64,000 bases of DNA from Candidatus Melainabacteria bacterium (GTDB taxonomy: Bacteria; Cyanobacteriota; Vampirovibrionia; LMEP-6097): assembly GCA_005110385.1 (NCBI GenBank), contig DUDT01000013.1:1-64000 (forward strand). The letters are read 5' to 3'. Shown here piece after piece: positions 3,296-46,297 of this stretch. Positions within the stretch are counted from its first letter, which is position 1, and each line of letters starts with the position of its first letter. The notes under the pieces are model-generated. The model searched no databases and had not been told where the DNA came from. It saw only the letters and a list, made by a program, of their open reading frames with translations. Made by a program: the position numbers and the translations under genes.

Positions 3296-4905
3296 TCAAT
3301 TAAGCAAATTCGCTTCTGATAAGACTTCTAGACTTGTGGCGAAACCTCCTATCGGTATTAATTGATTGCTATTCATTGGAGTAACTATTGGCCTTAAATA
3401 CGAACCATTAAATATAGAAGTACATTTAAGTGTCAACTTCGAAGGAAGATCTCTTACTGCGTTCGCAGTATCAAAATTTCTATAGTGAAAACTTTGCTGT
3501 ATCTCTTGATTCAATAATTCACCGTTATTATAACTTAAGGGATTCTTATCAAAAGCCCTACGTATATTTCCTTGACAAGATGCTAGTAATAAAATACTTT
3601 TAAACAATTTTTTCTGATCTATAAATATTTGGTGAACTGGATCAAATTCATTGTCATTAGATGGTTTATCAAGATATTTAATAATTGCTGCTGTATTACC
3701 AAAAACAATAATTAAGAATTCAAACAATAATTTTGAACCATAAAGTCTCTCAATATCTCGAAAATTAATAATTTTATCTGCAATAGCACGCTCTAAAAAT
3801 GTAGATAAAAATCCTTTCAGAAGATTGAAGAGTGTATAGTTAAGATCAATGTTTTGACCACTATGTAAAATATAGATATCAATACCTTTATTCACTTTAT
3901 GGAAACATTCTAAAACACGATTCAACTTATTTTTAATAGTATTTTGGTTACTAAATTCAAAAATAGCCTTCGAGCAAAACTTATCAATATACCCATTAAA
4001 ATCTGTCTCCAAGCCATATTTATGATGAAAAATGCTTTGGATATTATCAATGTCGCAAACAAAAATCACTCTGTCAAATCCATATCTATCTGCAAGTTTT
4101 TTTCTTCCTCAGAATTAATATCTCTTTCACTCATCAGGTCCTCATCATGAGCGGAAACTCCAATCTCTGCATTTTCGTCATCCTCAGAATCCTGTAAGTG
4201 TGCACTAAAAATATTTAATAATCTAAAGATATGCCCTAGATCCATCCTGTCGAAATCATCTATAACTAAAACTAATTTTTCCTCTTTATTCTTTTCTTTT
4301 ATTCGCTCTGTTGCATTCTTAATAAAACGAGTTGCAGTATCTTCATGAAGCTTTTGCGCGGCTTCAATCTCTTTCAAGAAACTTCGGACATGCTCTTCTG
4401 GAGTAGGTTCCGTATTCTGTTCTTTAGGATCTTTTTCACTTAGCTCGATAAAATTATTTATTATTTGAGATATTTCAAGGTCTAGTGATGCCTCTAAACC
4501 AAAATTTAATCATATATTAACCGTTACTCCTCTCGTTAATTTGCTTGTGAGTTTCAGTAGTTTTTTCAAAACACCTTGCTCATTATTTCTTAAAGCTTTA
4601 AATTTATCCACAATACGCTTATAATCAGCAAGGATAACTTTTCCTTTAGGGAGTATCTTTAAAAGACTTCTCAGTAAATCAAATTTTACTAACTCAAAAA
4701 TATCTTCATTAGCACAGACTTGATAATTTACTGGATATAGGAATACTGCTTCATAAGGATCTGAGTCTTTCTTAAAAAACTTTTCAGAAAATAGGTTTTA
4801 CCAGCCCCAAACTTAGCAGAAAAAATCATTCTATGATTGTCTTCTAAATCAATAAAGCTTTTAAATATTGGACTTACCTCTTTTCGCTGCGTCCATGTTT
4901 TTACC
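3296..4905 (-). pseudogene. KAP-family P-loop NTPase, broken by frameshifts and a stop
   Basis: Pieces of one KAP-like ATPase can be read in order on the minus strand: Walker A SAKFGAGKT near 4800-4825; then YEAVFLYPVNYQVCANEDIF; Walker B KLVLVIDDFDRMD near 4255; then RVIFVCDIDNI, HHKYG and YIDKFCSKAIFEF (4069 to about 3960) running to a stop at 3296. The frame is lost near 4785 (one base missing after KTYFL), by TGA at 4510-4512, and by one base near 4068, after an element-derived insert (SEDDENAEIGVS). KAP NTPases are membrane-associated ATPases often linked to mobile elements and defence. The three lesions point to decay or to assembly error. The N-terminus is not certain. Confidence 0.75.
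4146..4188 (-). repeat. Partial palindromic element in the KAP NTPase relic
   Basis: The minus strand reads GATGACGAAAATGCAGAGAT, then TGGAGTTTCCGC, encoding DDENAEIGVS. This is the right half of the element in the usual coding frame, located between Walker B and the segment after it. Slightly diverged (ATCTCTGCATT instead of ATTTCTGCGTT), so probably older. Confidence 0.7.
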
Positions 4906-12113: not shown

Positions 12114-13682
12114 ATGTACGAAATACCATTAACAAACGGAAAGCACGGTCACACCCTAAACGCCACACAAGTTTTCTCCCCAGATGGCAAATGGCTAGTC
12201 TTCGACACCCGCAATGATGACACTCATATAAGCCGTACTGAGAGCATCTGTAAGTTAAATATTGCAACTAAAGAAATTGTAGAGCTGTATAAAACTAAAA
12301 ATCAAAGTATGCATGGACCTGGGGTAGGGGCAGCAGCTTGGAACCCTGTTAATGACCAGATTATTTTCATTCACGGTCTTTTAAATTGTGATAAGGAAAA
12401 GCCCTACAGCTTGACTAGAAGGTTTGGAGCCATTACTGCAGGGAATCATGAGGCAGGCGAAAACGCAGAAATTGGAGTTCGGCAGCAGTGTTATCATGCG
12501 GAAGGAAGGAATATTCAAGAACCACTTACCAAAGGAGCTTTAAGAGGTGGAACCCATGCCCACACTTGGAGTGCTGATGGCAAGTGGATTAGCTTTACTT
12601 ATAACGATTATCTTATGGAATGTTTAGAAAAAACTTCTTCAAGTGAAAGAAAAGACTTGAGGACTATCGGCGTGATGAGGATGGTAGAGAATATTCATGA
12701 GGATCATGAGACAGGCGAAAACGCAGAAATTAGAGTTCGGTCAATAAACCTTAAAGGCACTGTTGCCGAACGTGCAAGTTCAAGGCTGAGGAGGACGAAT
12801 GACCGCAGTGTACTCAAGGTACATGAGGATCATGAGGACGACGAAAACGCAGAAATTGGAGTTCGGCAGCAGTGCCCTGCAGAGAATTTCAGAGGAACTT
12901 ACTTCGCGGTAGTCGCAGCTAAAGTTACAGAAAATCCTAAATTCGGCAGTGATGAAATAGAGCGAGCTTTCGATGAGTGCTGGCTAGGTAAAAACGGTTA
13001 CACGAAAGACGATAGCACTGTCCAGAATGGTTCACAGCAGACACGAGCCATAGCCTTTCAAGGAAATGTCCGTTCACTAGATGGAACTTTAGTTACAGAA
13101 GTTTTTATAGCAGATATTCCAAGTGATATAACTCAATCACTTACAGCTAAGCCACTGGAGGGGACCTTGGATACGAGACCTAATGTGCCAGCAGGTTTAA
13201 TGCAAAGAAGAATTACTTTTACTACAGAAAGAAAACACCCTGGGCTTCAAGGACCACGTTTCAGGTTGCGCAGTTCAGCAGACGGAAACCTTATTTATTT
13301 CCTTATGAAAGATGATAATGGTATCGTTCAAATCTACTCAGTAAGCAGTGCTAAAAATACTAAAAATACAATCACAAATCAGTCTCTTAAACAAATAACA
13401 AATTTCAAATACTCTGTTCAGTCACAATTCAATCTCAGCCCTGATGATAAATTTCTTTCAGTGGTGTCTAATAATCAGATATATTTAGTTAAAGCGCAAG
13501 ATGGTAGTACTACTAGCGTTAGCGAGAGATACAGCGAAAAAGAAGCGCCAATTAATGGCTTACACTGGAGTCCAGACGGTAAAAGCTTAATTTATAATCG
13601 CTATGTTCTCATCGAAAACGACTACTATATTCAAATTTTCAAAAGACTAATCAACGATAAAACCACCGAATCTCTGGATTAG
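12114..13682 (+). CDS. DUF3748 (YidR-like) propeller protein with three repeat-derived inserts
   Basis: 522 residues. Start and blocks HGHTLNATQVFSPDGKWLVF, SLTRRFGAIT, GGTHAHTWSADGKWISFTYN and FRGTYFAVVAAKVTENPKFG match the YidR/DUF3748 family, a predicted TolB-like beta-propeller whose function is not established. Three pieces of the palindromic element are translated in frame: about residues 110-127 (AGENAEIGVRQQC), 193-210 (HEDHETGENAEIRV) and 215-255 (full copy). All fall between conserved blocks, in loops. The 3' end overlaps miaA tail-to-tail by 32 bp. Family call fairly sure; biological role not inferable. Confidence 0.8.
   Translation: MYEIPLTNGKHGHTLNATQVFSPDGKWLVFDTRNDDTHISRTESICKLNIATKEIVELYKTKNQSMHGPGVGAAAWNPVNDQIIFIHGLLNCDKEKPYSLTRRFGAITAGNHEAGENAEIGVRQQCYHAEGRNIQEPLTKGALRGGTHAHTWSADGKWISFTYNDYLMECLEKTSSSERKDLRTIGVMRMVENIHEDHETGENAEIRVRSINLKGTVAERASSRLRRTNDRSVLKVHEDHEDDENAEIGVRQQCPAENFRGTYFAVVAAKVTENPKFGSDEIERAFDECWLGKNGYTKDDSTVQNGSQQTRAIAFQGNVRSLDGTLVTEVFIADIPSDITQSLTAKPLEGTLDTRPNVPAGLMQRRITFTTERKHPGLQGPRFRLRSSADGNLIYFLMKDDNGIVQIYSVSSAKNTKNTITNQSLKQITNFKYSVQSQFNLSPDDKFLSVVSNNQIYLVKAQDGSTTSVSERYSEKEAPINGLHWSPDGKSLIYNRYVLIENDYYIQIFKRLINDKTTESLD
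12447..12490 (+). repeat. Partial palindromic element, first insert in the DUF3748 gene
   Basis: About 44 bp: CATGAGGCAGGCGAAAACGC, then AGAAATTGGAGTTCGGCAGCAGTG. Right half of the element including its complete right arm, with the left arm missing. Encodes HEAGENAEIGVRQQC in the DUF3748 frame. Confidence 0.85.
12693..12740 (+). repeat. Partial palindromic element, second insert in the DUF3748 gene
   Basis: Core half CATGAGGATCATGAGACAGG followed by CGAAAACGCAGAAATTAGAG, encoding HEDHETGENAEIRV. It ends 16 bp before the full copy begins, so two insertions sit almost side by side. Confidence 0.85.
12756..12876 (+). repeat. Full-length palindromic element (121 bp), third insert in the DUF3748 gene
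   Basis: Left arm GGCACTGTTGCCGAAC (12756-12771) pairs with right arm GTTCGGCAGCAGTGCC (12861-12876), 15 of 16 positions Watson-Crick and one G-U. The core encodes AERASSRLRRTNDRSVLKVH and EDHEDDENAEIGVRQQC without a stop. Same length as the gltX copy, with different arm sequences. Confidence 0.92.
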
Positions 13683-30830: not shown

Positions 30831-30890
30831 GCGTATAGCGGAACTCCAATTTCTGCGTTTTCGTCGTCCACATGATCCTCATGTAAGCTT
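30831..30890 (-). repeat. Palindromic element copy between rplY and rluD
   Basis: The minus strand reads CATGAGGATCATGTGGACGACGAAAACGCAGAAATTGGAGTTCCGC in the element's right half. Flanks GCGTATAGC and GCTATTAGT can pair weakly. Intergenic; it lies between convergent genes and may contribute to termination. Confidence 0.8.
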
Positions 30891-36711: not shown

Positions 36712-38325
36712 ATGCCCTTAAACGCCTTTCCTAAAGTAAAAACCAGAATAGCACCTAGCCCAACAGGTAATCTTCACTTAGGTACCGTCAGAACAGCTCT
36801 CTATAACGTGCTTTTCGCTAAAAAGCACCAAGGTGAATTTTTCTTTAGACTTGAAGATACTGATAGACAAAGAAGTGAAGAACAGTTTACTCAAGAAATC
36901 TTAGAAGGTTTTAAATGGTTAAATATCTCTTGGGATAAGCCAGGAGGACGTGTAACCGAACGAACAAGTTCAAGGCTAAGGAGGACGAATGACCGCAGTG
37001 TACTGGGTGTACATGAGGATCATAAGGACGACGAAAACGCAGAAATTGGAGTTCCGTTACACGCCCCAGAAACTCTCATAGGCTTAGGTGAAGATGGGAT
37101 AGTCAGACAATCCCTCAGAGAAGCTGTGCATAACAGTTATATAGAAAGATTAATTAACGAGGGTAAAGCTTATAGATGCTTTGCGACAGTAGAAGAATTA
37201 GACGCTATGCGTGAAGCTCAGAAAGCTCGTAAAGAGATAGAAAAATATGATAATCGCTCAAGAGCTATTTCCAAAGATGATTCAGAAAAATTATTTAGAG
37301 AAGGTAAACCATATGTTGTTAGATTAAATCTAGGTGAAGATCACGTGATCACTTGGCTGGATTTAATCAGGGGTGAAGTATCCATTAATACTAAAGATCT
37401 AGGTGGAGACCCAGTTATTCAGAAATCTACAGGGCAGGTTCTCTATAATTTTGCAGTAGTGATAGATGACTATGAAATGCAGATCTCACATATCCTGAGA
37501 GGAGAAGATCATATAAGTAACACAGCGAAACAGATCGCTATTTATGAAGCTTTAGATTTTCCTATTCCCGAATTCGGTCACCTGCCTTTAATTTTCACGA
37601 AAGATAAACAGAAGCTCTCTAAACGTAAACATGGTGATATCGCTTCAGTTAAGACTTATCAAGCACAAGGCTATTTAGCAGAGGCACTAGTGAACTATCT
37701 TTTGGGCACTAGTTATAATTCAGCGAAATATGGTGAAATATTTACTATCCCTGAAGCTGCTGAAGATTTCGAAATAACTAGTGTTAGTAAAAGCCCGGCT
37801 ATCTATGATATTCAAAAATTAAACTGGTATAACCGTGACTACATAAGTAAACTAAACTACCAAGAAATATTAACTTATGTTTCGAGATTTTCAAAATTCG
37901 ATTTGGAAAATAGCTCTCTGTTCAATTCATCTCAAATCCAGTCAATAATTGAATCTACTAAAGAAAGTCTTGATAAATTTGAACAGATAGATGAACATAT
38001 TAACTATTTTTTTGAAGATTTTAAACTTAATGATATTACTTTAGTTACGATCGCCGAAGAAGGTAAAGAAGTTATCCATGAATTCATATCCCTTATCGAA
38101 AGTGGTTCTCTAGATTTTACTGATCAAAATTCAATTAAAAATGGTATTAATGCTATTGGTGCAAAATTAAACCTCAAAGGCAAAAAACTATTTTTCCCAA
38201 TTCGTGTAGCCATTAGTGCAAAAACTAGTGGGCCTGAACTAGGATTTATCGCAGTACTTTTAGGTAAAGAGAAGATCGTCGAAAGATTAAATTTAGCCTT
38301 ACTAGAAACCTCACACAGACACTAA
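36712..38325 (+). CDS. gltX: Glutamyl-tRNA synthetase with a full in-frame repeat insert
   Basis: 537 residues. Class I motifs APSPTGNLHLGTVRTAL (HIGH-like, 14-30), LEDTDRQRSEEQF, LRGEDHISNTAKQIAIYEAL and KLSKRKHGD (KMSKS) are intact, as is the C-terminal anticodon domain. A 121-bp palindromic element is translated at about residues 79-118 (RVTERTSSRLRRTNDRSVLG then VHEDHKDDENAEIGV). This is exactly where GluRS normally has the WDEGPDVGGPYGPYRQS loop, after which VRQSLREAVHNSYIERL resumes. First gene of gltX-asd-dapA-rnj, with asd starting one base after its stop. Confidence 0.95.
   Translation: MPLNAFPKVKTRIAPSPTGNLHLGTVRTALYNVLFAKKHQGEFFFRLEDTDRQRSEEQFTQEILEGFKWLNISWDKPGGRVTERTSSRLRRTNDRSVLGVHEDHKDDENAEIGVPLHAPETLIGLGEDGIVRQSLREAVHNSYIERLINEGKAYRCFATVEELDAMREAQKARKEIEKYDNRSRAISKDDSEKLFREGKPYVVRLNLGEDHVITWLDLIRGEVSINTKDLGGDPVIQKSTGQVLYNFAVVIDDYEMQISHILRGEDHISNTAKQIAIYEALDFPIPEFGHLPLIFTKDKQKLSKRKHGDIASVKTYQAQGYLAEALVNYLLGTSYNSAKYGEIFTIPEAAEDFEITSVSKSPAIYDIQKLNWYNRDYISKLNYQEILTYVSRFSKFDLENSSLFNSSQIQSIIESTKESLDKFEQIDEHINYFFEDFKLNDITLVTIAEEGKEVIHEFISLIESGSLDFTDQNSIKNGINAIGAKLNLKGKKLFFPIRVAISAKTSGPELGFIAVLLGKEKIVERLNLALLETSHRH
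36946..37066 (+). repeat. Full-length palindromic element (121 bp) inside gltX
   Basis: Left arm GGACGTGTAACCGAAC (36946-36961) pairs at 14 of 16 positions with right arm GTTCCGTTACACGCCC (37051-37066). The core differs from the DUF3748 copy at few positions, but the arms are different and have changed together. No stop in the gltX frame. Confidence 0.93.
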
Positions 38326-42131: not shown

Positions 42132-42189
42132 GGGACTGCCCGCAAACTCCAATTTCTGCGTTTTCCTTGTTCGTTTGTGAGCAGTCCCC
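42131..42189 (+). repeat. Short form of the palindromic element after rnj
   Basis: Arms GGGGACTGCCCGCAAAC (42131-42147) and GTTTGTGAGCAGTCCCC (42173-42189) pair 15 of 17, the two exceptions being G-U type. The 25-nt loop keeps only TCCAATTTCTGCGTTTTC of the core (minus-sense element). Probably doubles as an RNA hairpin or terminator behind rnj. Confidence 0.85.
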
Positions 42190-46160: not shown

Positions 46161-46176
46161 CTAAATCAGTAAAAAG

Positions 46177-46241
46177 CACTGTTGCCGAACTTTAATTTCT
46201 GCATTTTCGCCCAGCCTTGAACTTGCATATTCGGCAACAGT
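46177..46241 (-). repeat. Short form of the palindromic element, intergenic
   Basis: ACTGTTGCCGAA (46178-46189) and TTCGGCAACAGT (46230-46241) form a perfect 12-bp stem. The loop keeps both ends of the core (AATTTCTGCATTTTCGCC and CAGCCTTGAACTTGCA), with the middle deleted. The arms are the same as those of the full copy in the DUF3748 gene. Confidence 0.88.
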
Positions 46242-46297
46242 AAAAATCCCCTAAAGTCTAAATCATGCTTCGCTAAATTTTAAGCTTAGAGCTGTGA

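Follow-up and report, generated by a model that had tools for sequence, protein, structure and literature searches.

An in-frame 121-bp palindrome in gltX of an uncultured Caenarcaniphilales bacterium belongs to a multi-copy family of structured elements

The glutamyl-tRNA synthetase gene (gltX) of Candidatus Caenarcaniphilales bacterium (Melainabacteria/Vampirovibrionia), an uncultured, non-photosynthetic relative of the Cyanobacteria, carries an in-frame insertion of a 121-bp palindrome that recurs, in full copies and in fragments, in unrelated genes and intergenic regions of the same genome. The data presented here show that the gltX segment is an insertion, that it belongs to a multi-copy family with a 5-bp target duplication, that the genic copies obey a strict frame rule, and that the fold of the element is supported by structural covariation. 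We consider the element very likely to be a non-autonomous, MITE-like coding palindrome that works much as the Rickettsia palindromic elements (RPEs) do and represents a distinct family; its translation, its tolerance by host proteins, its mobilization in trans and the role of its fold are inferred.

Results

Insertion in gltX. The gltX gene occupies positions 36712-38325 on the + strand of the window (i.e., the whole 64-kb stretch of DNA that was analyzed) and encodes a protein of 537 aa; its reading frame is open, and its product scores 495 bits against the NCBIfam model gltX_bact (cut-off 290). It is the only tRNA-synt_1c gene found in the genome, a draft assembly of 25 contigs that is 88.5% complete. 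The full-length palindrome lies at 36946-37066 (+), exactly where an initial annotation made from sequence alone had placed it, in frame, and supplies GltX residues about 79-119 (GRVTERTSSRLRRTNDRSVLGVHEDHKDDENAEIGVPLHA). The 16-nt arms (36946-36961 and 37051-37066, both +; GGACGTGTAACCGAAC / GTTCCGTTACACGCCC) pair with each other, as had also been proposed, and the left arm varies in sequence among copies with complementarity retained. An 88-nt core (36966-37053, +), about 95% identical among paralogous copies, includes an apical hairpin with a variable loop (36998-37014, +; GTGTAC/GTACAT) that covaries with TGCAC/GTGCA and TGTAT/ATACA forms. The folding of the gltX copy was equalled by 1 of 200 shuffles (z -3.1). 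The element is flanked by an imperfect 5-bp repeat, CAGGA on the left (36941-36945) and CAGAA on the right (37067-37071); in the gltX of Cyanobacteria bacterium REEB446 the corresponding flanks are CAGAA and GAGAA, which we read as a decayed 5-bp duplication.

Comparison with relatives established that the segment was gained. GltX of REEB446 (92% identical) carries the element at the same codon, and in GltX of Candidatus Caenarcaniphilales RE-15aug16-7 (also 92% identical) 93 nt of the element are gone, in frame, with both arm stubs kept. The distant GltX proteins L033 (57%) and L034 (55%) lack the element; their loops at the insert site are short (WDGDMVRQS in L034), as is that of 6b1p, the top-scoring solved GltX chain. 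The residues of the insert are therefore an addition and do not take the place of the long WDEGP...YRQS loop found in other bacteria, and the proposal in the initial annotation that it replaces a WDEGPDVGGPYGPYRQS-type loop failed. The estimate of about 40 residues from the insert held, with about a dozen further lineage-specific residues (HAPETLIGLGE) coming next. Either of two observations would have refuted the insertion of a tolerated element, namely the same residues as an ancestral loop outside the genus or a second gltX; neither was made, with the proviso that the search for a second gene or another tRNA-synt_1c gene was limited to an 88.5% complete genome. Tolerance by an essential enzyme is thus supported, in that gltX is apparently single-copy with its frame open, though translation and tolerance remain inferred, without experimental proof. 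The suggestion of a surface loop has only weak support from a low-confidence structure prediction; in the AlphaFold model, which rests on only 7 sequences (mean pLDDT 63), pLDDT is <50 over residues 80-121, and the insert is likely, on this prediction, to form a disordered surface loop.

Copy number and anatomy of the family. A 22-nt core pattern matched the genome 72 times, as compared to 0 matches for a reversed control, and profile searches identified 57 full copies in this genome, at least 26 in REEB446 and at least 25 in RE-15aug16-7; the source genome also contains many fragments. A full copy has a core of 88 nt between a left end of 20 nt and a right end of 13 nt, and is 121 bp long in 103 of 108 copies. 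Among paralogous copies the core is about 95% identical, compared to 59% for the arms and 43% for the apical loop; among orthologous copies arms and loop are 95% and 91% identical, respectively, and therefore provide stable fingerprints of each insertion. The arms fall into classes (GGGCGTGTAGCCGAAC, GGCACTGTTGCCGAAC, GGGACTGCTCGCAAAC, and GAGACCGCTGCACAAC), each of which retains complementarity. Perfect 5-mer terminal repeats flank 25 of 103 full copies (1.2 by shuffling) and 5-mers matching at 4 of 5 positions flank another 22 (4.6 by shuffling); no longer perfect repeats were found at the termini of these copies, and the target duplication is also seen in G004. Element plus duplication amount to 121 + 5 = 126 bp, or 42 codons, and tandem copies have a period of 126 bp. 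The element thus meets the MITE criteria of being short and multi-copy with terminal inverted repeats and no gene of its own, as well as that of a target-site duplication of fixed length (5 bp).

Two further features of the copies were observed. At loci of the source genome, 22 of 54 full copies have a 3'-end fragment immediately before them and oriented alike, again with the 126-bp period. A longer variant, in which an extension, GTAATTTCCAGCGATGCC...CAAGCTTGATTTATCAAGCTTACATG, takes the place of the apical hairpin and which is still in frame in genes, occurs at L081 (2016-2216), L085 (1978-2178), L097, and L106, and in REEB446 at L117 and L133.

The window itself contains about 14 copies or fragments, including a few weak ones. 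At its start, a copy truncated by the contig start (1-82, -) stands in tandem with a second full copy (88-208, -) that is in frame in valS; the contig thus begins within a tandem element array (1-208), and assembly breaks may therefore hide more copies. A 3'-end fragment (GEHEDDENAEIGVCEQ) is also in frame in valS (2157-2207, -), and another is in frame in a short ORF (4149-4194, -). A DUF3748/PD40 gene contains, in frame, a 3'-end fragment (12443-12489, +) and a full copy (12756-12876, +), the latter with a further in-frame 3'-end fragment directly ahead of it (12693-12741, +). Intergenic copies include a 3'-end fragment (30831-30888, -) and two mini copies with internal deletions (42132-42188, -, with both arms present, and 46175-46244, -).

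Frame rule and host genes. All 47 genic full copies, scored as lying within long ORFs of the three genomes, are read on the + strand of the element, start at a codon boundary, and use frame 0. Of the five remaining frames, the other two on the + strand and two on the - strand are hardly ever open; the fifth, - frame 0, is open in 34 of 47 genic and 42 of 61 intergenic copies, and is used by none of the genic full copies counted. Codirectional intergenic copies show no such bias (7 with transcription, 14 against), and the rule therefore reflects what proteins tolerate rather than the mode of insertion. If genic insertion were harmless, a coding fraction of 0.89 and a single usable frame out of six would give a genic-to-intergenic ratio of about 1.3; the observed ratio is 47:61, a count that includes interspecies orthologues and does not score as genic any ORF disrupted by a copy. 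We infer that copies in frame are tolerated almost as often as intergenic ones.

The host genes encode conserved enzymes. Full copies are found in gltX, valS, glyS, trmD, and tsaC/Sua5, and in a CCA-type tRNA nucleotidyltransferase gene, as well as in murQ, a pepA-type peptidase, photolyase (two in tandem), PhoX, YlqF, a penicillin-binding transpeptidase, HPPK-acetyltransferase, and an RND transporter, and more. Fragments are found in argS, truA, queE, pyrK, cysN, and hemD-like genes. Several inserts sit at domain borders (e.g., between the two Sua5 domains and, in GlyS, between the synthetase domain and the DALR domain). The trmD-like genes L013 and L235, from two genera, carry the element at neighboring sites in opposite orientations, suggesting independent insertions into the same loop.

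Encoded peptide and decay of copies. The 5' half of the element encodes a basic peptide (RTSSRLRRTNDR) and the 3' half an acidic one (HEDHEDDENAEIGV). The core varies to a similar extent at all three codon positions (0.041, 0.063, and 0.048), with no codon-position pattern; it is therefore the nucleotides that are conserved, not the peptide. Solo fragments, which were counted only in fetched loci picked by left-core and arm patterns, retain only the 3' end in 62 cases and only the 5' end in 14, an excess strongest in genes (38 vs. 4 genic fragments in the + frame); 38 of 42 solo 3'-end fragments in genes keep the frame of the element. Duplications flanking the truncation points of 5'-truncated copies did not exceed chance (1 found, 1.7 expected), which argues against simple target-primed insertion, and one 5'-truncated site is full length in REEB446. 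We read the truncation as erosion that favors loss of the basic half; 5' truncation could still have a replicative cause.

Wider structured family. Structured homologues span the organism's own family, three further families of its class, and one family of another class. Of 382 genomes in the class, 15 were matched by a first covariance model, derived for the most part from this genus and G006: all nine from the taxonomic family, four from family f8, and two from f9. A second model extended the range to G010 (family f3) and to three genomes of one family outside the class. Two relatives contain 60 and 83 matches. Across 59 diverse copies, 91% of cells pair and 37 of 41 pairs show two-sided changes, with a covariation score of 0.684 (0.178 when shuffled, and no higher than 0.116 for slid controls); because the alignment had been fitted to a related structure, the score is somewhat inflated. 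G-U outnumbers A-C on the + strand (61:11 in the inner stems, 69:14 in the arms), and the + strand folds better than the - strand in 95 of 96 copies; the + strand is therefore the strand whose fold is kept. Isolated pairs that RNAalifold placed in the purine-rich loops of this genus were not trusted. The core of this genus is stop-free in frame 0 on both strands. Outside the genus, homologues are mostly intergenic, with only 4 of 66 sampled copies inside long ORFs, and it is therefore mainly in this genus that the palindromes are coding.

Rfam gave no match at E up to 1 for the gltX copy or up to 0.5 for 16 loci from several families, the literature searched contained no description of the element, and plasmid and phage collections gave no match. 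The initial annotation's inference of an undescribed family of coding palindromes is thus supported. Viral contigs did not contain one exact core pattern; a looser pattern was found in two. Structured homologues were observed in two contigs classed as viral, L263 (7546-7671, 2805-2921, and 1483-1605) and L264 (7769-7889), and L268 (1352-1474), from a record titled Candidatus Nealsonbacteria, gave a clear covariance-model match (73.6 bits); these isolated matches could reflect mis-binning or capture. In G015 and G025, from another family, homologous palindromes have longer arms ending in AGACCTCTTGCATG, ends that are common to several other short palindromes of about 140-490 bp, and appear to be flanked by TA rather than by a 5-bp repeat.

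Discussion

In the model that we favor, the element inserted into gltX before the split of the three sampled species of the genus, with a 5-bp target duplication, such that 126 bp (42 codons) were gained without a frame shift. One orientation and frame of the element is stop-free and encodes a hydrophilic, probably disordered peptide with a basic and then an acidic half, which would be translated through as an extra loop in an enzyme that apparently still works, likewise in dozens of other genes. The + strand folds into a rod whose purine-rich internal loops are conserved, and it is this fold, and not the peptide, that the wider family keeps, probably as the target of an unknown mobilizing enzyme or as the feature that renders the element harmless in transcripts. 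With its inverted ends, fixed 5-bp duplication and lack of a gene, the element has the anatomy of those MITEs that a DDE-type enzyme mobilizes in trans. Against this model, arm sequences are so variable that recognition of the ends by sequence alone is hard to envision, which suggests recognition by shape or by the conserved core. In addition, nearly all sites in the three-genome comparisons are old shared sites with remnants rather than clean empty sites. A search of the source genome and G015, confined to end patterns and DDE_Tnp_1, revealed neither a transposase nor a longer element whose ends match; the arm pattern retrieved mostly truncated right ends and no autonomous partner in the source genome, and the end pattern of G015 and G025 retrieved only short palindromes of about 140-490 bp. 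The DDE_Tnp_1 loci examined as a possible autonomous partner had different ends.

Among the alternatives, movement via an RNA intermediate (by target-primed reverse transcription or a similar process), instead of as a MITE cut by a transposase, survives best, even if we regard it as unlikely. Conservation of the fold on the + strand only and the 62 to 14 excess of 5'-truncated copies would fit; by contrast, the 5'-truncated copies lack target duplications beyond chance, at least one of them has a full-length counterpart in a sister species, and the excess peaks in genes, as fits decay under selection against the basic half. There is little to recommend a second alternative, in which the element is removed from the mRNA by self-splicing or excision, or bypassed by the ribosome, so that no peptide appears in the protein. 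While the + strand has strong structure, conserved internal loops and a G-U bias, removal would not require a single open frame and orientation, with which 47 of 47 copies comply; furthermore, truncated fragments unable to fold still keep the frame, and the partial loss in RE-15aug16-7 (93 nt) is a multiple of three. Selection on the peptide itself, as a domesticated tail or loop with a cellular function, is similarly improbable; HEDHEDDENAEIGV recurs in many proteins and 3'-end fragments are preferentially retained in genes (38 vs. 4), but intergenic copies have the same core, variation shows no pattern by codon position, host genes are unrelated and insertion sites differ, and relatives keep the fold, often without an open frame. 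An ancestral or lineage-specific GltX loop that merely looks palindromic can be dismissed almost entirely, for although two species share the element at the same place, the 121 nt recur as 57 full copies in unrelated genes and intergenic regions, and the segment is absent from L033, L034, and solved GltX chains. A decaying gltX or a binning artefact, conceivable in a draft assembly, is virtually ruled out by the same insertion, with the frame kept, in a separate assembly and by the strong match to gltX_bact of the only gltX found.

The non-autonomous, MITE-like coding palindrome that we thus prefer resembles several known systems. RPEs and the Wolbachia palindromic element are palindromes of 100-150 bp, genic and intergenic, that are translated in frame in unrelated conserved genes (PMC2229807, PMC10969869), and a guanylate kinase carrying an RPE is active (cited in PMC2229807). 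Our element shares with RPEs the size (121 bp, within a range of about 105-150 bp), the long stem-loop formed by pairing arms, and in-frame insertion of a conserved peptide into unrelated protein genes. It differs from them and from the Wolbachia element in its host, a member of the Caenarcaniphilales in another phylum, in its strict use of one frame and strand in 47 of 47 genic full copies, in its clear 5-bp duplication (entered as '?' for RPEs in PMC2229807), and in having a structured core conserved across families, exchangeable arms, and homologues that are mostly intergenic. Given the differences in host, duplication, and core, we do not claim RPE membership; the likeness is by analogy, without direct comparison to RPE sequences. 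ERIC, NEMIS/Correia, YPAL, and RUP are also short, palindromic, and present in many copies, with target duplications, a stable RNA fold, and some in-frame fusions, and ERIC, NEMIS, and RUP have TA at their termini (PMC2229807). By contrast, the duplications in this genus are 5 bp and not TA, YPAL duplications range from 3 to 26 bp, and, unlike these bacterial MITEs, our element has several classes of arms around one core and no parent element that we could find. PARCEL, like our element, is palindromic DNA coding for a repeated peptide (PMC2996958), but forms tandem domains, mainly in membrane proteins, whereas our element is dispersed, mostly in single or double copies and mostly in soluble enzymes.

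A bolder reading, which is possible at this point, is that these palindromes belong to an undescribed class of mobile element, defined by a folded single strand in the shape of a rod whose purine-rich loops are conserved, and present in at least two classes of Cyanobacteriota, perhaps beyond. The folded RNA or single-stranded DNA would itself be moved by dedicated machinery, and in one genus a version free of stops would have arisen and given rise to in-frame inserts in well over a hundred genes. Palindromes of the coding type, known from Rickettsia and Wolbachia, are now found in a distant phylum, densely, in many housekeeping enzymes and under a strict frame rule. The family thus serves as a natural experiment in which the tolerance and erosion of 40-residue inserts by proteins can be followed, and a fold conserved across bacterial families, combined with exchangeable arms, makes the mode of movement of such elements testable.
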